30,446 bases of DNA. It comes from a virus. This document shows positions 2,407 to 24,817 of the stretch, piece after piece; position 1 is the first letter of the stretch; the number at the start of each line of letters is the position of its first letter. The stretch lies in the IMG/VR virus record IMGVR_UViG_3300009418_000074, positions 1-30,446 of that record; one strand, 5' to 3'. Below the pieces are notes generated by a model. It saw nothing but the letters and a program-made list of their open reading frames with translations. It had not been told where the DNA came from and made no database searches. The translations under genes and the position numbers were made by a program.

Positions 2407-3300
2407 GTGCCAGACCAAATCTTTTCAACAGTTCAGATTCCTGTAAATCAGTGGCGCTGGTTGCCGGTAACGTGTTTAGACTCGGCAGGAAATGCTGTAG
2501 ATAGCGTTCTTGCGACTCAGGTAGAGATATCTTTTATTCGCAGTGGTGAGCTTTCAGTTACACTGTATGCGGCACCGGATTTTGATTCCACAGCATCTAC
2601 AGTGGTGGGAAATTTTGCTGCTGGTGTAACTACTATTAAGTTGCTTGATACTAGTAGTTTTCCTCCTGAAAACGGCAAAATTGTAATAAATCCTCTAGTT
2701 CCGGCATCGATAGAGACGCTTGAATACTCATATAATAACGTATCTACCGGAGAACTGCTCCTTACGTCCCCAACTGTTAACGTACATAACGCGACAGAGC
2801 CCGTAGAGCGTGTTGATTGGGTAGAGGTCAATGCTACTATTGCTCCTGGAAGTTATTTACTTCTTCTTCCGCCAACTATCCTAAGTAAAGAAGATGTATT
2901 TACGTACATAGTAACTAACGGTTCTCCTCCCCCCGTACCTCCTGCCGTCGCTCTTTTTGAGCCGTACTTCAATACAATTGATATTGTAGGCAGTCTTGAC
3001 CCGGTTACGTTTACTCCTCCGTCTATTCCTACCTGTAAGCTTTATGGATTTGTAGTAGATTTGGCGGGCGTTGCTGTAGCCAACGCGTCGATTTCTGCGA
3101 AGCTATTGGCGGTGCCGTCTACTATGGGTAACGCTGGTTTTTATGACAGGATCATGTCATCTAAAACGGACACAAACGGTTATTTCGAGTTTGTTGTGGC
3201 TCAGCAGACAACGATTGACATAGTCATAGCGGATATTGGTTATCGACGAACTGTCGTCGTACCCGACACCACGTTGGCTAAGTTATTTGAGTTGGCATAA
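2407..3300 (+). CDS. Virion protein with beta module and carboxypeptidase-regulatory-like domain
   Basis: The protein has 297 residues and starts at GTG 2407, eight bases behind a G-rich ribosome site. The N-terminal ~60 residues are beta-type and start IFSTVQIPVNQWRWLP. Residues ~66-138 form a small beta module (FAAGVTTIKLLDTSSFP, then IETLEYSYNN, then LLLTSPTVNVHNA) that reappears in the baseplate wedge protein at 22895. After a proline-rich linker (SPPPVPPAV), residues ~215-297 resemble the prealbumin/carboxypeptidase-regulatory-like fold: CKLYGFVVDLAGVAVANASI, then KTDTNGYFEFVV, then IADIGYRRTVVVP. Such domains act as rigid binding or spacer modules; no enzymatic residues are evident. The stop shares one base with the next ATG (TAATG). 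It is probably a neck, fibre or decoration protein. Confidence 0.75.
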   Translation: MPDQIFSTVQIPVNQWRWLPVTCLDSAGNAVDSVLATQVEISFIRSGELSVTLYAAPDFDSTASTVVGNFAAGVTTIKLLDTSSFPPENGKIVINPLVPASIETLEYSYNNVSTGELLLTSPTVNVHNATEPVERVDWVEVNATIAPGSYLLLLPPTILSKEDVFTYIVTNGSPPPVPPAVALFEPYFNTIDIVGSLDPVTFTPPSIPTCKLYGFVVDLAGVAVANASISAKLLAVPSTMGNAGFYDRIMSSKTDTNGYFEFVVAQQTTIDIVIADIGYRRTVVVPDTTLAKLFELA

Positions 3301-5560: not shown

Positions 5561-6288
5561 TGACTACAAACACAACTCAACTGTTTACGAAGAAGCAAGT
5601 CAAAGACTATGCAATCGTAGACTATTCTCGGTTTAAGAAACAAACCGAAGTGCGGATGCTTGCTTTAGCGGCGGCAGCTATTTCTAAATGGGTTGAGCAC
5701 GCACAGGCGACATTCAGCGTGTCTACGGCTAATAGGTATATCCGTGCCCTTTATTGGGACCCTAGCAACCCCGACCACATTAGGTTAGGGCTACAGCCAG
5801 GAACTCTTGGCGATATTCTAGAGCATGGTCAGAATGAGCATGATCTCAGAAGTATATTTATGTTAAACGCTAAAGTCTCCAAGGAAGGTCTCCCCTATCG
5901 GGTCATTCCAATGCGGGATAAGAACCGTGTGGAGACTTCTGAGAAGAGTGCCACCCCGTTCTTGGCGAGCGTAGATAGTATGCGCTCTGTGGTGCAGAAG
6001 CGTGAGCCACAGATTGCAGAATACATTATTCGGTCTGAGATGTCTCAGTTTGATAGGGCTTCTGTTAGCGTTAGGTCTACTAAGGCTCGTGGAAACTTCT
6101 TACCGTCTGGAAATACTCAATTTAGAACGATAACCGGATTTAGAGATCTGAGTAAACCGGCAGATACTTGGAAACACCCAGGTATTCGAGCAGCATTAAT
6201 TGGAAATCAAATCTCATCGTGGATGGACCTTAATAGGGAGTCGTTTACCTCTGATATGTTCTACGGAGATCCTGGAATCACAGAATGA
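5560..6288 (+). CDS. Tail completion/neck protein, HK97 gp10-like
   Basis: The protein has 242 residues. TAATG overlaps the upstream stop, and the gene overlaps the next start by four bases (ATGA). A helical N-terminal region (QTEVRMLALAAAAISKWVEHA) leads into LGDILEHGQNEHDLRSIFM (about residues 82-100), which fits the 'iE-x-G...dm' signature of HK97-gp10-type minor tail and neck proteins. Near the end is TWKHPGIRAALI (about 203-214), matching the 'W-x-HPG' motif of the same families. In myoviruses, members act where the completed tail joins the head. Order fits: it lies just before the tail-terminator-like gene and the sheath. The family call is from motifs, not from a search. Confidence 0.75.
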   Translation: MTTNTTQLFTKKQVKDYAIVDYSRFKKQTEVRMLALAAAAISKWVEHAQATFSVSTANRYIRALYWDPSNPDHIRLGLQPGTLGDILEHGQNEHDLRSIFMLNAKVSKEGLPYRVIPMRDKNRVETSEKSATPFLASVDSMRSVVQKREPQIAEYIIRSEMSQFDRASVSVRSTKARGNFLPSGNTQFRTITGFRDLSKPADTWKHPGIRAALIGNQISSWMDLNRESFTSDMFYGDPGITE

Positions 6289-7913
6289 TTATACCTGAGA
6301 TAATCGTACAGCGTGTTCTGGTAAACGGGATACGCCGAATACGCAACATCCCTTGGAAGTCTGATCAACTTTTCAAGAGTGTTCCGCAGAGCTTTGCTCA
6401 GCAGTTCTACGAACTTATTCAAAGCACTCCCATCGACATTACAATTAACTACCCAAGAGAGGATAGTCAGTTCCCCTGTATTGCAATTCTTCTTCGGGCT
6501 GAAGAAGAGAGTGATATATTCTTGGGGGACTTGTTGTCTGCCGGGTATGACGATACCGACCGCTTGTTTGGGTCAGAAGGGCTCTTCTACATGAAAGGAG
6601 AGACCTCATCCTTAGCAGACGACACTTATGGCTTAGCCTTGGGGCTTGGACAGGGTGAGAAGTACGAAGATACGCCCAAAATCTTCGATAAAAGTGTACA
6701 GAAATATAAAGAACGAAGGGGATCTGGGTACTCGTGTAGCTATCTGCTACAGGTTATGACAGATGATCAAGACTTCACCATCTTCATGTATCACCTTGTC
6801 CGTTATATTTTAATGGCCGGAATACCGACGTTTACTACGAATGGGATGCACCAAATTCGATTCAGTGGTACCGATTTCCTTCCCCAGGCAGCCCAACAAC
6901 CTAACTTCATATTTATGCGCGGGATAAATATGAACTTCTTGTACTTTGCAGATCACTATCTCGTAGAAGGCGACGAGGGCTTAGAAGCAGCGGCGAAAGC
7001 ATTTGTCATTAATATGGGAAATGCTTGGGGAGATACACCCGACATGCTTGCTGAGGTGCAAAAACCCCTCATCACAGCCGTGTCCGTAGTTACAGGAGTC
7101 ACAGGAACCTCAATCGTCAAGGTAAGCGAGGGAGACCTTTTGACGGTTACGTCGGGCACGTCAGAGAATATTATAGCTCCAGTTGTTGAAGTTTTATCAA
7201 ATCAATTGATATTTGTAGCAGGTACGTTCGTTACGGTACCTGAGGCAGACGTAAGCTATTCTCTTAAAGGAGGTATAACCAGTGCTGGAAATATCACTCT
7301 TTTATCAGACGGTAGGGAAGCTTTAACGGATACAAATATGGTATTTGGTGGCGGGATTGCCGTAACAGGGATTAACTTCCAGAACGGCCTCACTATTGAG
7401 TTTATAAAAAGTACCCCAGGATCTACGTTTGATGTCTTAGGCAGCGACGTAGGAATAGTTGTAAGTAATATCTCCGTGGGTAGTACTGAATTTAAAATAG
7501 AGTTTACTCCGGTAAATTCAGGTACTACGGGCTCTACTAAGAAAATATTCTCCGCGAACGTAGCTGACGTAGTTCCAACTACGCTGTCTGCGGGGATGTT
7601 CCTAGAGGTACTCGGACCTAAATCCCACTCGACTTATGGGGAAAAGCGTAGAATTATTAGTTTTACAAGCGGAGCTAGTGGGACTATAACTGTCGCTAAT
7701 GATTTTTCCGACAGTTTGGCAGGGGTTTCTGTTCAAGTAATTAAGGAAAGTTCGGTAGAGACAGTGACCTCGGTAGGTGGCCACGCTGTCACAAAGAAAT
7801 TTACTTTTGATTTAACAATTTCAGCAGAAGCCACTGTTGGGGTGTGGGATATTAAAGTTACCAACCCCGATTTAATCTCAACTACCCTAACTAAATCGTT
7901 TACTATTACGTAA
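6285..7913 (+). CDS. Tail-terminator-like protein with C-terminal Ig/TIG-type domain
   Basis: The protein has 542 residues, and its start overlaps the previous stop (ATGA). Residues 1-~230 are globular with INYPREDSQFPCIAILL (about 54-70), FLGDLLSAGYDD, and SYLLQVMTDDQDFTIFMYHL (about 154-173). The 'QFPCI...LRAE...FLG' pattern and the late helix resemble sheath- or tail-terminator proteins that cap the tail; this gene lies between completion and sheath genes, as expected. From about residue 350 an Ig/TIG-like domain starts (VTGINFQNGLTIEF) and finishes with GVWDIKVTNPD. It appears interrupted by a small module with YGEKRRIISFTSG (451-463), which resembles inserts in the sheath. Terminators are usually 150-280 residues, so the extra ~300 residues are an added surface domain. 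Confidence 0.65.
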   Translation: MIIPEIIVQRVLVNGIRRIRNIPWKSDQLFKSVPQSFAQQFYELIQSTPIDITINYPREDSQFPCIAILLRAEEESDIFLGDLLSAGYDDTDRLFGSEGLFYMKGETSSLADDTYGLALGLGQGEKYEDTPKIFDKSVQKYKERRGSGYSCSYLLQVMTDDQDFTIFMYHLVRYILMAGIPTFTTNGMHQIRFSGTDFLPQAAQQPNFIFMRGINMNFLYFADHYLVEGDEGLEAAAKAFVINMGNAWGDTPDMLAEVQKPLITAVSVVTGVTGTSIVKVSEGDLLTVTSGTSENIIAPVVEVLSNQLIFVAGTFVTVPEADVSYSLKGGITSAGNITLLSDGREALTDTNMVFGGGIAVTGINFQNGLTIEFIKSTPGSTFDVLGSDVGIVVSNISVGSTEFKIEFTPVNSGTTGSTKKIFSANVADVVPTTLSAGMFLEVLGPKSHSTYGEKRRIISFTSGASGTITVANDFSDSLAGVSVQVIKESSVETVTSVGGHAVTKKFTFDLTISAEATVGVWDIKVTNPDLISTTLTKSFTIT

Positions 7914-7954
7914 AATACGTATTAATGTCATAGCAGAAATCGTGGTGAACTTAG

Positions 7955-8200
7955 ATGGCTGTTAAAAAAGTTTCAAAACCTATTGGAAAAAAAGTAGAAG
8001 GGGCTTCTGCAAAGAAGGTAGAGCCGCCTAAAGGTCCCCCTCTTGTGGTACGACAAGACCCTGCTTCAGATGCTAAAACCTATTTGATGAGTATTGGTAC
8101 TCGACCGAATAGGATCGCGCCTATGGTGGCGTGGGCAAAAGGCAGGGGATTAGCTATAGCGACGTTTTCTCAGTGGGAAAACTTGTTTAAGACTTTTTAG
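7955..8200 (+). CDS. Small basic protein upstream of sheath
   Basis: The protein has 81 residues. Residues 1-30 are lysine- and proline-rich (KKVSKPIGKKVEGASAKK) and probably disordered. Residues ~37-81 look folded and helical, ending in IATFSQWENLFKTF. The ribosome site is weak (GGTG about 7942-7945). It lies in the 7914-8210 interval between the terminator-like gene and the sheath gene, only 10 bases before the sheath start, so it is co-expressed with sheath. I do not recognise the family. The disordered basic arm plus compact end could suit a minor tail or nucleic-acid-contacting protein, but nothing in the sequence decides this. Confidence 0.65.
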   Translation: MAVKKVSKPIGKKVEGASAKKVEPPKGPPLVVRQDPASDAKTYLMSIGTRPNRIAPMVAWAKGRGLAIATFSQWENLFKTF

Positions 8201-8210
8201 GAGAGCGTAA

Positions 8211-10940
8211 GTGTCAAAATTTATTACATTTAATGGAGTAACGCTCTATCATCCGGGCGGCTTAACTAAGGTTGATGCTGCGGGGATGGCCCAGGTAGCT
8301 GCTGGCGCTAGTGGTATTGTGGGTATTATTGGTGAGGCTGATTACGGTCAGCCGTATGACCCCGCCAACAACTCCCCAAAAGTCTATACATTTACAGATC
8401 CTGACACTGCAGTAGACGCATTTAAGAGCGGTCCTCTTGCCGACTCGATCGACTTCTTATTTAATCCATCGAACGACATTCGTATCCCCGGTGGCGCTCA
8501 ACAGATAGTTGCCATTAAGAGTAATATTGATACGCAGTCTTCAATCGTTGCTCAGAATCAGGCATCTGATGCTGTTTCTTTAACTTTTACTTCTGTAATT
8601 TACGGAAAGTACTCGAATGCTCTTTCCGCCAAGGTTGCTCGTAACGAGGCCGACACGGATACGTTAGATGTAACGGTGACGGATGGTAATACCGCTACCG
8701 TAGAGACATTTACTCAGATTTGCGGAGATCCTCTCTTAGACGTTCAGTACGCTCCTAGTACACCCGTTCAAGTTGGAAGCAATTACACAACGACGGGGGC
8801 AGGCGGAGTTGGTCGCCTTGTCGTGGCGGGACTTTCGACGGAAGATGAAGGTCGTTGGGTAATGATTGTTTCGTCTCCTGGAGGAGTTCCTGGGGGCACT
8901 ATTCGTCGTATTGGTGATACCGGTACGGGTACGGGTGGTGTAGCAGGGTCGAATATCGACATTGAAGGAGACTTTTTTAACGCTGCTGGTGCAAGTACCG
9001 CTCCTGGTTCGGGTACCGTGTTTCAGGTTCTAAGAGAGGCTGCTGGGCCGTTCTTTGTACACACTTATAACTCAGCGACTACTACTATAACGGTAAACGC
9101 TAGATCAGACCAACAGCCTGCTGGGTACACGGCAGGCGCTCCCCTTTTCTGGACCAACGCTTCTGGAGACGGTGCTTACGGAGCCCCCAGGACCGGGCCG
9201 TGCTATGTACATATTGTGTCGGGTACGGGTGCGGGGCAGGTTCGACGAATTGTAACCACTGGTGCAGTGACTGCTGGTGCAAGTACTGATATCGAGGTTG
9301 TTAACGGGTTTGCTACTAACCCGGACAATACTTCTCAGTTTGTATTCATTAACGCTGTACCTAAAAATACAGCAGGTACGCCAGATGCCCCTACCGCTAC
9401 TGGCGGTAACGCTATGGGCGAGGGCGCGTTTGGCGTTATTGCCGGGGCAAGCGGCATCTCTAACTCGCTATCCTTGCAAGTGCGCCCTGGTTGGGGTGAG
9501 CCCGCGTCTCACGGTGGAGCATCCGTAGACTTTAATAACGCTGGCCCTGCTCGTGCTGCAGATTGGACTTTTACGCTAGCGTCTACTTTGAATGTTAATG
9601 CGTTTGTTACTGCCCTTAATAATGGAAATGTTATTTCTGGGGCTACGAAAGGGTCAGATACCTCTGGTTCTTGGAAGGCTCGTGTTGGTTTAGGTCGTGA
9701 TGGGACTCTCCCTACGAGTCGTTTTGATTTTACCGGACGAGCTAATGGTGCCTACGTGGGGGCTGCTACTGCAGCCGGTGTAGATTGTCTCTGTGATTTC
9801 GAGACAGATCACCCCGCAGATAAAGAAACTGGAGATTTTGGAACTAATCCAAATCGTTACCACCGATTTACTGATAACCTGGCGTTGTTGATTGACACAA
9901 TCAACTCTCAAAGTCAGCTTGTTAGTGCGGCCCGCGCCACTGTGGCAGGTAGTGCCCCCTATGCAGGAGCTAACTTTGGTGACGGCGTAACGGCGTTTGC
10001 TACTTTCGCCCTTTCAGGTGGTGCTTACAACGCTACGACAGCGTCTGGGCTAGTTGATTGTTTTGAGGAGCTAATTAAGCACCGACAAGATACGGCAGTC
10101 GCTTTGTGGAGTTCTGACGCAACTAATTTCACAATTGATTACGTCCACTCTCTTCTTGCTCAGCACGCGAAGAACGGTGCAGGAGCCTATAAGAACGAGG
10201 TTGACTGTATTGCAGCGGTTCGGCCCCCCGCTACTGATACAAAAGCAGTGGGTATGACCCTTATTAAGACTGGTGCTTCTACTCTTAACGATCGAAACGT
10301 TGCTTTAGTGTTTCAGGATGTTAAGCGTGCTGGCCTAACTGGTGCTGTTACTCAGTTTGAGCCTCACATGCTTGCGTGTGCGGCAGCGGGTATGCAGGCA
10401 GGGTCTCCTATCGGTACTCCTCTTACGTTTAAATTAGTAAAGGCCACTGATATTCTTTGCCGGAATCAGAAGATCGACACGTTAGATAAGAATACATCTG
10501 ACGAGCTTTTACAGAGCGGTGTTCTGTTCTCTGAGAAGGTTAAGGGTCAGGGGTTCCGTATTGTTAAGAACCTTAGTACTTATACTTCCACTGATAACGT
10601 AGCGTATACAGATCGTAATGTTAATTACGAATTGAATTACATTGCATACGACCTTCGTACTTTCATTGAAAACCGGTTCACGGGAGCAAAGGCAACTCCT
10701 GCTATTGTAGCTTCGGTTAAGAGTTCAGTTATTAGTAAGCTGGAGGTTTACAAGCGTGATCTAGAGATCATTGTAGACAGCGAAGATCTAGCAACTGGTA
10801 CAAAGTTAAATGCCTATAAGAATCTCAAAGTAACTGTTTCTGGTGATATCTGTACAATTCGTTTTGAGATATTCCCAGCGGTTGGTATAAACTACATAAC
10901 TTTCGAGATTTTTGCACAACTCCCCACACTCAGCGCCTAA
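8211..10940 (+). CDS. Contractile tail sheath protein
   Basis: The protein has 909 residues and starts at GTG 8211 behind AGGAGA (8199-8204). The N terminus (FNGVTLYHPGGLTKVD, then GIVGIIGEADYGQP) is the typical opening of sheath proteins. About 555-700 is the central fold, with the conserved 'LSGG-x-YN' segment (FALSGGAYNATTASG) and the stretch leading to DCIAAVRPP. The C terminus (ENRFTGAKATPAIVAS... then VTVSGDICTIRFEIFPAVG and YITFEIFAQL) is the conserved part that grips neighbouring subunits and the tube. At 909 residues it exceeds T4 gp18 (659). The extra length sits between about residues 175 and 400 as two Gly/Thr-rich beta modules with RRI at 232-234 and 345-347. Those inserts are likely on the outside of the tail. 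Tail sheath is the most secure call with gpJ. Confidence 0.93.
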   Translation: MSKFITFNGVTLYHPGGLTKVDAAGMAQVAAGASGIVGIIGEADYGQPYDPANNSPKVYTFTDPDTAVDAFKSGPLADSIDFLFNPSNDIRIPGGAQQIVAIKSNIDTQSSIVAQNQASDAVSLTFTSVIYGKYSNALSAKVARNEADTDTLDVTVTDGNTATVETFTQICGDPLLDVQYAPSTPVQVGSNYTTTGAGGVGRLVVAGLSTEDEGRWVMIVSSPGGVPGGTIRRIGDTGTGTGGVAGSNIDIEGDFFNAAGASTAPGSGTVFQVLREAAGPFFVHTYNSATTTITVNARSDQQPAGYTAGAPLFWTNASGDGAYGAPRTGPCYVHIVSGTGAGQVRRIVTTGAVTAGASTDIEVVNGFATNPDNTSQFVFINAVPKNTAGTPDAPTATGGNAMGEGAFGVIAGASGISNSLSLQVRPGWGEPASHGGASVDFNNAGPARAADWTFTLASTLNVNAFVTALNNGNVISGATKGSDTSGSWKARVGLGRDGTLPTSRFDFTGRANGAYVGAATAAGVDCLCDFETDHPADKETGDFGTNPNRYHRFTDNLALLIDTINSQSQLVSAARATVAGSAPYAGANFGDGVTAFATFALSGGAYNATTASGLVDCFEELIKHRQDTAVALWSSDATNFTIDYVHSLLAQHAKNGAGAYKNEVDCIAAVRPPATDTKAVGMTLIKTGASTLNDRNVALVFQDVKRAGLTGAVTQFEPHMLACAAAGMQAGSPIGTPLTFKLVKATDILCRNQKIDTLDKNTSDELLQSGVLFSEKVKGQGFRIVKNLSTYTSTDNVAYTDRNVNYELNYIAYDLRTFIENRFTGAKATPAIVASVKSSVISKLEVYKRDLEIIVDSEDLATGTKLNAYKNLKVTVSGDICTIRFEIFPAVGINYITFEIFAQLPTLSA

Positions 10941-10957: not shown

Positions 10958-12310
10958 ATGCCCACCCTTACTGCAGCTACTCATCAAAACCTTTTAAGTA
11001 TTCTTCAGAGTAACTTAAATGGTAATACGTCCGTCTTGGTCCCTTCTGGACAAGCGTTTTACGTCCCAGGAACTAGTGTTCCTCTTACTCTTAAGTACGA
11101 TGGGTACGTGACTAAGAGGGGGACTTTGAGTGCTCCGTCGCCCGCTAACGGCGCGACCCTCACTCTTGGGGCTTTTACAGAGGCTGCTCAATTTCGGGCA
11201 GGGGATGTCTGCTACTTAGTGGGTAACTCTTTTGCAGGCGCTGTGGGCGCTGCTGATAACACAGCAGATCAGGTCACAGTAACTAGCGTTAGCGGTCAGG
11301 ACGTTACGGTCACTGGTCGTGCTGGGGGTGCTTACGCCGTTGGTTCTAGCCTTGTGGTGGTTGATGATTCCCAGCCGGGGGGTTACGCAGGCGGTACTTC
11401 GGACGGAGGTCCGGTTGGTAACCAGGCGTTGGGAGAGTTGTTGGCTGGTCTTGAGGAGCTTTGCAACAGCACCGGAACTGCTGATGGTGGCGGTCACACC
11501 GCTACGACAATTGATATTGACAACGCGGGGGGCTGGGACGAAGCCGGCTCCATTGAAGGCGCGACGGTTACAATGCTTACGGCTACTGCGGCAAACAACG
11601 TGGGAGTTACCGCCGTAGTGGTGAGCGCTACTGTAGCCGACCCGTCAGTGTTGACGCTGACAGATTTTAAAGACTCTGACGGAAACGCGCTTACTCAGTG
11701 GCCTACTGTACCAAGCGATGCTGATACAGTCTCTATTGAGCTTGATCTTTCTGACGGTAAGCTCACAGACTTGCGTGAGGCTGGTGGTGATATGACCACC
11801 ATGATTTCTGCGATGCTAACCATGCACCGCAAATTAGATGAATCCCTTGACTCTCCTGAGATCCCCCTCGTTAATGAGTGGCAAGTTTGGGGCCAGAAAA
11901 CAGGCTCGTTGATTCGCAGCAGTCTCCCGTATAACAACGCGGGACCAGACCTTACCATTACCGTGCAAATGGATGGCGCTGTAGGGGATATCCCCTTTCC
12001 TCTTAGTGGGATGGTTCGCGTTATTGATGCAGATGATGGTGTTGGTAGCTCCGCATGGGATAGCGCTTCGTCGGCAAGCAACTTTGTGGCGTATACTCGG
12101 GCTAAACGCTCTAACGTCCTGGATTTCGGGGCTGGATTCGCCGGTCTGGGCGCTAACTACGGCACTGGCTGCCTCGTAGAGCTTCAGGGTACTGTTAATG
12201 GTTTTGCCACTAACCGAGGTTTTGCTCCAGAGGCAGCTAACAAGTACCTCTCTGGGCTGCTGTATCAGTTAGTCAATGCTGTTAATGCGTTTGCTATCCT
12301 TGGTGCGTAA
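10958..12310 (+). CDS. Tail protein between sheath and tube, unknown
   Basis: The protein has 450 residues and a good ribosome site (AGGAG, 10944-10948). The N-terminal ~135 residues are a beta barrel-like region: TLKYDGYVTKRGTLSAP, then GAFTEAAQFRAGDVCYLVG, then ADQVTVTSVSGQDVTVTG. A glycine-rich linker (GGYAGGTSDGGPVG) follows. Next come a helical bit (ALGELLAGLEELCNS), a second beta module (TATTIDIDNAGGWDEAG...), and a C-terminal segment with helical TTMISAMLTMHRKLDESLD and a closing KYLSGLLYQLVNAVNAFAIL. There is no membrane anchor or enzyme motif. Sheath and tube genes are usually adjacent, so an intervening 450-residue gene is notable; it may be a second sheath-layer, decoration or tube-related protein. 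Function unassigned. Confidence 0.7.
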   Translation: MPTLTAATHQNLLSILQSNLNGNTSVLVPSGQAFYVPGTSVPLTLKYDGYVTKRGTLSAPSPANGATLTLGAFTEAAQFRAGDVCYLVGNSFAGAVGAADNTADQVTVTSVSGQDVTVTGRAGGAYAVGSSLVVVDDSQPGGYAGGTSDGGPVGNQALGELLAGLEELCNSTGTADGGGHTATTIDIDNAGGWDEAGSIEGATVTMLTATAANNVGVTAVVVSATVADPSVLTLTDFKDSDGNALTQWPTVPSDADTVSIELDLSDGKLTDLREAGGDMTTMISAMLTMHRKLDESLDSPEIPLVNEWQVWGQKTGSLIRSSLPYNNAGPDLTITVQMDGAVGDIPFPLSGMVRVIDADDGVGSSAWDSASSASNFVAYTRAKRSNVLDFGAGFAGLGANYGTGCLVELQGTVNGFATNRGFAPEAANKYLSGLLYQLVNAVNAFAILGA

Positions 12311-12333: not shown

Positions 12334-12807
12334 ATGGCTGAAGTCTTTACCGGAGCACGAGCTAAATTTTACATCAATGGACAAGCTGTTGGTTACTGCG
12401 CTGGTGTTAGTGGTGAGGAAGCCATCGACTACGAGCCCGTAGAGACGCTTGACTTCTTAGAGGTCCGGGAGCACATCCCCGTTGCTTACCGGGCCTCTTT
12501 GAGCGCAGCGTTCTTCCGCCTTGTTGGCTCTTCGTTAAAGAGTTATCTAGGTCGCTACAATAGTGACTTTGGCGGGGCGTCTATTTTCCCGAAGTTTGAT
12601 GATATTCTTACCTCAGGCGTTCTTTCTGCGGCAATCCACAACACTAAGTCTACTGATACTGAGTCTGGGGAGTCGGTGCCTGACATCGTTGCGTTGTTCA
12701 CATCGGTTCGTGCGGCCAGTAAAACGTTTGACGTATCCGCCCGTGGTATTGTAACAGAGAATTGTTCTTTCGTAGCTATCAAGCAGCAAGACGAGTCTGA
12801 GCTTTAA
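12334..12807 (+). CDS. Tail tube protein
   Basis: The protein has 157 residues and starts at ATG 12334 behind GAGG (12323-12326). The N-terminal segment AEVFTGARAKFYINGQAVGY followed by GVSGEEAIDYEPVETLD is the expected beta-hairpin opening of myovirus tail tube subunits. It continues EVREHIPVAYRASLSAAFFR. The middle has the long loop, and the C-terminal strand pair includes ASKTFDVSARGIVTENCSFV. Length matches the family (about 140-170 residues; T4 gp19 is 163). The subunits form stacked rings inside the sheath around the tape measure. Its position immediately before the chaperone pair and tape measure fits the canonical tail order. Confidence 0.85.
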   Translation: MAEVFTGARAKFYINGQAVGYCAGVSGEEAIDYEPVETLDFLEVREHIPVAYRASLSAAFFRLVGSSLKSYLGRYNSDFGGASIFPKFDDILTSGVLSAAIHNTKSTDTESGESVPDIVALFTSVRAASKTFDVSARGIVTENCSFVAIKQQDESEL

Positions 12808-22894: not shown

Positions 22895-24817
22895 ATGGCA
22901 GATTTTACCCCTAAGACATCAGAAGAGATATTAAAAGATGCCATAAACTACCTGTATCTGAACACCAATATCTCTGATTTTAATGTTGGAAGCGTTATCC
23001 GAACCATCCTTGAGTCGATGGCTTTAGAGGACGCTAATCAATATTACCAGATGTATAACATCCTCAACTCATTCTTTTTGCAGAATGCGAGTGGGGGTGC
23101 GTTAGACGATCGGGCTGCAGATTATGATGTTTCGCGTCGGCCTTCTACTTCGTCTGCGGGTACTGTCTTATTTCTAGATACTAATCTTCAGCGGTCTTTT
23201 TTGACGACTAATGTAGCTGCTGGAGCTACTACGATATACGTAGAGGATGTCTCTGTTTTTGGAGCAACCCCATTTACTGTTCAGCTTGGAGAGAGCGGCA
23301 ATGTAGAGCAGGTAGCGATTAACGCCACAGACGCGGCTACGGGAGCGTTAACACTTGTTAATCAGACTACGTATTCCCACTCTTCAGCCACCACAGGCGT
23401 AGACGAGGTTGATAATCGTAGTAGTTTAGTGTGTCTATTTGACGCTGCCGCTGCTGACCGGCTTATCGCTTCAGGTACGACCCTTCGTGCTCAGCCAACA
23501 AACGTTACATTTGAGATTGAGTGTATAACGACGGCGGTTGGTCTTCACCAGCAGGGATACTTTGCGAGTGAGTCGGTTGACGTTCGAAGCACAACGGTGG
23601 GTGTTAACAGTAATATCCCCGCAAAACGTCTAAATCAGATTGTAGGCGGAATTCCCTATGCTGGGGCGTCTGTGGTTAACCTAGATCTTATTTCTGGGGG
23701 ACGTGGTCCTGAGCTTGATTCAGAGCTTAGAGATAGGATTCGAGATACTATTGCCAGCCTTCCTGCGGCTACAAAAGTGGCGCTTCTAACCAACCTACTT
23801 ACCACTACTGACCCCGTGACTAACTCAATCATAACCCGAGCTAGCATAGTAGAGAATTTTGAAAAGGAACTCGTCTACGCATATGTAGATGACGCTAGTT
23901 CCGCAGGGATTGTAAACAGCGAAGAAAGACACGCAGAAGATACTCTAAACGTACCTACCGTGCCTACTGACACCACAATAGTCTTGAATAGCCTTGTAGG
24001 GTTTTCATCAGCCACCCTATCGAATTTGTCTTATATTATTTTAAATCCGATGGGCGGTAACCCATTCATTACCCAATACGGCAACATGAATGTGGCGGTC
24101 AATACACTAGAGTCTATCCCGACGGCTGGAGTGCCAGATTTAAGTATGCCCGCGCTCCCCATAGGTACAACAGTTTCCCTATGTGAGGCGGTATCTCTTT
24201 CTTCTGAGGATAAGAGAAAGTATTACCAGTTGGATAAGTTCCCACTGGGGGATGATCTTCTTCGTTTATTCTTAGTGAACGGTCAAAAGATTGGAGCGGC
24301 TTCTCTGTTAGTGCCGTTGGCGTCTGGGGAATGTGCTACCGGAACAGAAGACTACGTAGTTAACGAGGCTCTGGGACAGATTGAGTTTCTGTCTGGAAAA
24401 ATTCCTGTTGATGGAAGTGGTATTTTTGCAATTTATGAGAATTTTACTAATCTGTTAAAAGAGGCCCAAAAGGTTATTGACGGGGATATATTTAATGCCG
24501 TTAACTACCCCGGAGTTCGATCGGCAGGCGTAAAGGTTCTTGTGCGCCCCGCGCAGAGAACGCCGATAGACGTAACTCTTAATATAACGATTGATTCTGA
24601 AGAGACAGATTTAGACACTGCAGCGTTTTTCTCAAAACAGCTTGTGATCTCATATGTTAATAATTTAGGTATAGGACAAGACGTAATTCTTGCGGAGTTG
24701 GTTGAGCGTGTAATGGGTGTAACGGGAGTTACTAACGTACATGTTATTGAACCTCAGGCTGATGTGACTGTTAATTCAGATCGCTCTCCTTACGCAGACA
24801 GCGTTCTTGTTGTTTAG
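22895..24817 (+). CDS. Baseplate wedge protein, gpJ/gp6-like (Baseplate J)
   Basis: The protein has 640 residues. The N-terminal signature (FTPKTSEEILKDAINYLY; ISDFNVGSVIRTILESMALE; GGALDDRAADYDVSRRP) is diagnostic of Baseplate J. The core segment includes SESVDVRSTTVGVNSNIPA, IVGGIPYAGASVVN, GRGPELDSELRDRIRDTIAS and the late LVEQ-type helix (VILAELVERVMGVTGVTNV). T4 gp6 is 660 residues, so the size is normal. Residues ~103-172 carry a beta module (VAAGATTIYVEDVSVFG, then GALTLVNQTTYSHSSATTG) nearly the same in pattern as in the protein at 2407. A second similar region is near 350-380 (VPTDTTIVLNSLVGFSS). It links the inner baseplate to the arms. It directly follows the gp25 fusion, in the common order W-J. 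Confidence 0.93.
   Translation: MADFTPKTSEEILKDAINYLYLNTNISDFNVGSVIRTILESMALEDANQYYQMYNILNSFFLQNASGGALDDRAADYDVSRRPSTSSAGTVLFLDTNLQRSFLTTNVAAGATTIYVEDVSVFGATPFTVQLGESGNVEQVAINATDAATGALTLVNQTTYSHSSATTGVDEVDNRSSLVCLFDAAAADRLIASGTTLRAQPTNVTFEIECITTAVGLHQQGYFASESVDVRSTTVGVNSNIPAKRLNQIVGGIPYAGASVVNLDLISGGRGPELDSELRDRIRDTIASLPAATKVALLTNLLTTTDPVTNSIITRASIVENFEKELVYAYVDDASSAGIVNSEERHAEDTLNVPTVPTDTTIVLNSLVGFSSATLSNLSYIILNPMGGNPFITQYGNMNVAVNTLESIPTAGVPDLSMPALPIGTTVSLCEAVSLSSEDKRKYYQLDKFPLGDDLLRLFLVNGQKIGAASLLVPLASGECATGTEDYVVNEALGQIEFLSGKIPVDGSGIFAIYENFTNLLKEAQKVIDGDIFNAVNYPGVRSAGVKVLVRPAQRTPIDVTLNITIDSEETDLDTAAFFSKQLVISYVNNLGIGQDVILAELVERVMGVTGVTNVHVIEPQADVTVNSDRSPYADSVLVV

Follow-up and report, generated by a model that had tools for sequence, protein, structure and literature searches.

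A GAGQ-R-I beta module of phage virion proteins in the tail sheath and, probably, the tail terminator of uncultured myophages

Introduction

Tail sheaths of large phages carry extra domains, and the origin of these domains is unclear. The multidomain (type 3) sheaths of large phages have extra beta or Ig-like domains in a conserved core, and the extra domains lie away from the tube (Evseev 2022, PMC9230969). In Staphylococcus phage 812, a beta-sandwich of the tail terminator clamps sheath domain I, and the outer sheath domains III and IV face outward (PMC12886913). Here we describe a sheath with a core of the SPO1/Herelleviridae type, in which the inserted segment is made up of two copies of a module that recurs across many other virion proteins, and a tail terminator that probably carries a third. 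The DNA analysed is the 30,446-base virus record IMGVR_UViG_3300009418_000074 (the window).

The tail gene cluster

Gene annotation identifies the window as the tail module of a contractile-tailed phage. The tail terminator (6285..7913, + strand, 542 aa; phrog_1000, 2e-7) is followed by a small ORF (7955-8200), the tail sheath (8211..10940, + strand, 909 aa) and a probable tube gene (12334-12807); tape-measure and baseplate genes, baseplate J among them, are also present. The sheath was assigned through phrog_279 (tail sheath, E 4e-43), and its profile matches the sheath of Staphylococcus phage 812 (5li2, E 7e-18); matches to PF04984 (1e-4) and PF17482 (0.009) are both weak and below the Pfam cut-off.

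Several other proteins of the window were compared with the module. A 450-aa protein (10958-12310), which has no match in Pfam or PHROGs, sits between the sheath and the probable tube and is retained in those relatives that reach that far; nothing lies between sheath and tube in SPO1. It was ruled out as a carrier of the module (hhalign about 1% or less). The proteins at 2407-3300 and 22895-24817 have a beta unit of another kind, 'TTIxxxDxSSF..G', and their FPxG-type beta units were likewise ruled out as copies (hhalign about 1% or less). The first ORF (3-1364) is fibre-like, with repeats of ADTNELQGDWxNGGRLDLLLDA.

The module and its carriers

An earlier note, made from the sequence of the window, had pointed to a G-x-x-RRI frame in the terminator (residues 455-457, nt 7647-7655) and twice in the sheath (residues 232-234, nt 8904-8912, and 345-347, nt 9243-9251), and all three positions are correct. 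The pattern G-x-x-R-R-I occurs 3 times in the 9999 residues of the window against 0.08 expected from composition (Poisson P about 8e-5, for a pattern picked after the data had been seen). The shared frame proved to be more than a word match, in that the segments show profile-profile homology, but RRI itself is not the family signature, which reads G-Q-x-R-x-I and leaves the middle R variable. Only R and I are invariant in our alignment A9, and copy 1 in the sheath of the related contig L024 reads SRI (GQMSRI). A fuller signature extends over about 60-80 aa, [V/I]-x-I-x-S-G-T-G-A-G-Q-x-R-x-I ... T-V ... F/W ... P-D-x-T-S-x-[FY]-x-I, and sheath copy 2 of the window has GTGAGQVRRI.

A match to gp66 of Pseudanabaena phage Pam2, a protein with several GAGQ repeats, prompted a degenerate DNA scan for GTGAGQ-x-R-x-I over viral contigs, and at least 120 contigs were found. 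Among the matches listed, 121 of 121 fall in the reading frame of an ORF of 100 aa or more; one of the contigs, L149, encodes the present sheath itself and was excluded from the canonical profile. The carriers among the matches listed include a gp8 baseplate wedge (phrog_438, 1e-88; Phage-Gp8), phrog_376 and phrog_394 tail proteins, a head-tail adaptor Ad1 fusion, a phiJL001 Gp84-type hub, a kelch-repeat protein and a distant fibre-J-like protein. The module is the same unit as the GAGQ-R-x-I units of other phage tail and fibre proteins, and the earlier note had pointed to such units in phage fibres; its description of the module as mobile also holds, because the module is present in many unrelated virion proteins. 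Its presence in a gp8-like protein also suggests insertion, because a 341-aa gp8 aligns with the 600-aa carrier on both flanks of the module. The module alone gave nothing convincing in Pfam, PHROGs or NCBIfam (chance-level best matches, KOW 0.017 and Phage_BR0599 0.027) and no match by sequence in the PDB, and no description of it was found in the literature searched.

Two tandem copies in the sheath

Copy 1 (8760..9053, + strand, sheath residues 184-281) aligns with the canonical module at hhalign 94-95%, and copy 2 (9054..9362, + strand, residues 282-384) at 98.8%, with an i-E of 1e-13 for the canonical HMM. The two copies match each other at 95.8% (E 7e-9) in a profile-profile comparison of segments from seven relatives, while reversed profiles gave mostly under 10%, with one at 26%, and control segments of the same proteins about 0-1%. 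A profile built without this clade finds copy 2 in the window (i-E 1e-13) and copy 1 in five relatives (7e-6 in L016, 2e-5 in L011, up to 0.06 in the others); the window's own copy 1 is not detected by the canonical HMM, only the copies of the relatives are. These profile comparisons establish homology between the two sheath segments and of both with the canonical module.

It might be argued that the shared RRI words are a chance or low-complexity likeness in beta-rich, Gly/Thr-rich proteins, especially since the motif was picked after reading and the proteins are rich in G, T and A. The homology, however, extends over 40-58 columns in comparisons that include an independent profile, controls with reversed or shuffled profiles stay low, and the matches listed for GTGAGQ-x-R-x-I all lie in frame. 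The independent profile and the controls refute chance resemblance for the sheath copies, and for the motif as a whole this explanation is highly improbable.

An insertion relative to SPO1-type sheaths

The sheath was aligned with eight homologues from cultured phages, seven of them 568-572 aa long, the other being that of Myxococcus phage Mx1. Window residues 201-400 have an occupancy of 0 in the seven short sheaths (PHB04, Dolphis, Goe8, SPO1, ST4, CM1 and EalM-132), and the Mx1 sheath (L029:1072-3933, 953 aa) carries a large insert of its own there, unrelated to this one. No GAGQ-R-I module was found in any of these eight sheaths with the clade-free profile. As judged from the alignment, the segment that holds the two modules (8793..9410, + strand, sheath residues ~195-400) is a true insertion, because it is entirely missing from the seven SPO1-type homologues; the reading of the segments as sheath inserts is thereby borne out.

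Related records were found in seven viral contigs, L003 (99%), L005, L007, L004, L011, L016 and L024, and scans found none in bacterial genomes. Sheath identity to the window is 47-72% in the relatives other than the near-identical L003, and in each of the seven the two sheath copies are accompanied by the terminator copy. The suggestion that the inserts come and go therefore applies between sheath clades, because the seven short sheaths and Mx1 have no module, but not within this clade, where the copies appear to be fixed. Copy 1 changes faster than any other part of the sheath, with 36% mean pairwise identity against 63% for the core, as expected of an exposed add-on.

A probable third copy in the tail terminator

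The terminator consists of an N-terminal core of the SP10_terminator type and a C-terminal beta extension. PF23932 (SP10_terminator) lies above its cut-off of 27 bits in L007, L004, L011 and L016 (35.7-39.7 bits) and just below it in L005 (26.2 bits), and it is not listed for the window terminator at E up to 1. The extension that holds the probable third copy is an add-on as well, because homologues of the SP10_terminator type, those of the SPO1-like phages EalM-132 and SPO1, are only about 285-293 aa long. In L024 (2172-3526), the terminator gene is in two ORFs overlapping by TGATG, the second of which consists of the beta extension and module only; the split may have arisen by gene fission or reflect a frameshift close to a run of G.

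The candidate copy (7512..7754, + strand, terminator residues 410-490) lies inside this extension. It matches sheath copy 1 at hhalign 50.6%, or 80.3% with query and template swapped, over 56-58 columns, and in three comparisons its score exceeded those of all 40 column-shuffled terminator profiles. It is also more conserved than most of the flanking beta extension. From these profile matches, the segment is probably a third, diverged copy of the module. One could instead suppose that only the sheath copies are a genuine module, and that the segment in the terminator is a beta hairpin of other origin which converged on it around the short G-x-x-RRI turn. The canonical HMM misses the segment (E above 1), hhalign to the canonical set gives just 11-26%, and our scan A11 found the terminator variant only in the same seven phages. 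The likeness to sheath copy 1, however, reaches well beyond the turn and exceeds the shuffled profiles and also a reversed one, and the AlphaFold2 models have the same strand order around RRI in the terminator and a sheath copy, so that such convergence seems rather unlikely.

Two further parts of the terminator invited comparison by eye. A private insert of ~80 aa (7107-7350, residues 275-355), missing in L005, L004, L011 and L016, resembled the module and was ruled out (hhalign under 0.3%); L007 has a different insert at this site. An IPT/TIG Ig-like domain in the C-terminal flanks was also rejected, the joined flanks having no Pfam match.

Predicted structure

Structure prediction, which had been proposed as a check, yielded local five-strand modules within models that are poor overall: mean pLDDT is 42 for the sheath, whose model cannot place the module in the sheath, and 41.5 for the terminator. 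Copy 1 (pLDDT 60-84) and the terminator segment (72-89), which has five strands, are the most confident parts. Both follow the order strand, RRI strand, strand, F and final strand, as does copy 2 with lower confidence. The models have a single predicted strand from the RRI strand to F, not the two short strands that the earlier note had described. Strand order and local confidence suggest a common fold. Foldseek searches with both models gave no match below E 1e-3 (best 0.014-0.02 in the PDB and 0.0017 in BFVD); the weak local matches were to GH110B, endosialidases and the phi297 tailspike. No significant match of these weak models to an Ig fold was seen.

Discussion

The findings are very probably explained by a small five-stranded module that is re-used across many virion proteins and was inserted in the sheath, with a probable third copy in the terminator. 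An ancestor of these uncultured myophages would have received two tandem copies in a tail sheath of the SPO1 type and a diverged third copy in the C-terminal beta extension of the tail terminator. The module may be a passive structural domain exposed on the outside of sheath and neck, where it would pack against neighbouring subunits and thereby hold together the rings of the sheath and the junction between terminator and sheath; as a second role, it could adhere weakly to the cell surface.

We put the chance of such an external packing role at about even, and prefer it to adhesion. That the modules are receptor- or glycan-binding patches coating the tail and aiding in sticking to cells is possible but doubtful. 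The module occurs also in fibre-like and kelch-repeat proteins, copy 1 diverges fast, endosialidase and GH110 beta domains were among the weak fold matches, and weak glycan binding has been proposed for Ig-like sheath domains (PMC9230969). Against this, adaptor, hub and gp8 proteins, in which a binding role is not obvious, carry the module too, the fold matches are not significant, and the conservation of the terminator copy above most of its surroundings suits packing better. More speculatively, the module may be a virion block shuffled freely among tailed phages and along the whole tail, its copies in sheath and terminator making a matched sheath-neck interface here. If so, it would be an unrecognised counterpart of the phage Ig-like domains, used in neck, sheath, baseplate, hub and fibres.

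For this sheath, the extra domains can be traced to a source, namely a module, present in two copies, that recurs in many other proteins of the virion. Because Pfam, PHROGs and NCBIfam contain no family for the module and no solved structure matches it by sequence, a name for it would allow a great many viral proteins to be annotated and the movement of domains from one virion protein to another to be tested.

Among known systems, SPO1/Herelleviridae have the same gene order of terminator, small ORF and sheath. The N-terminal ~190 and C-terminal ~350 residues of the sheath align with sheaths of this group (phrog_279; phage 812, PDB 5LI2/5LI4), which are 568-587 aa long, against 909 aa here, and lack both modules in the seven aligned. 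The window terminator gave no sequence match to solved structures; like that of phage 812, it has a core plus an extra beta domain, with the difference that the extension here carries the module. The modules of Pam2 gp66 and of the gp8-like wedge, hub and kelch proteins share profile homology of 97-99% with sheath copy 2, but these carriers, unlike the window protein, are not sheaths. Extra domains in sheaths are already known; what is new, compared with type 3 sheaths, is a specific repeated module in the sheath that is common to unrelated virion proteins and, probably, the terminator.
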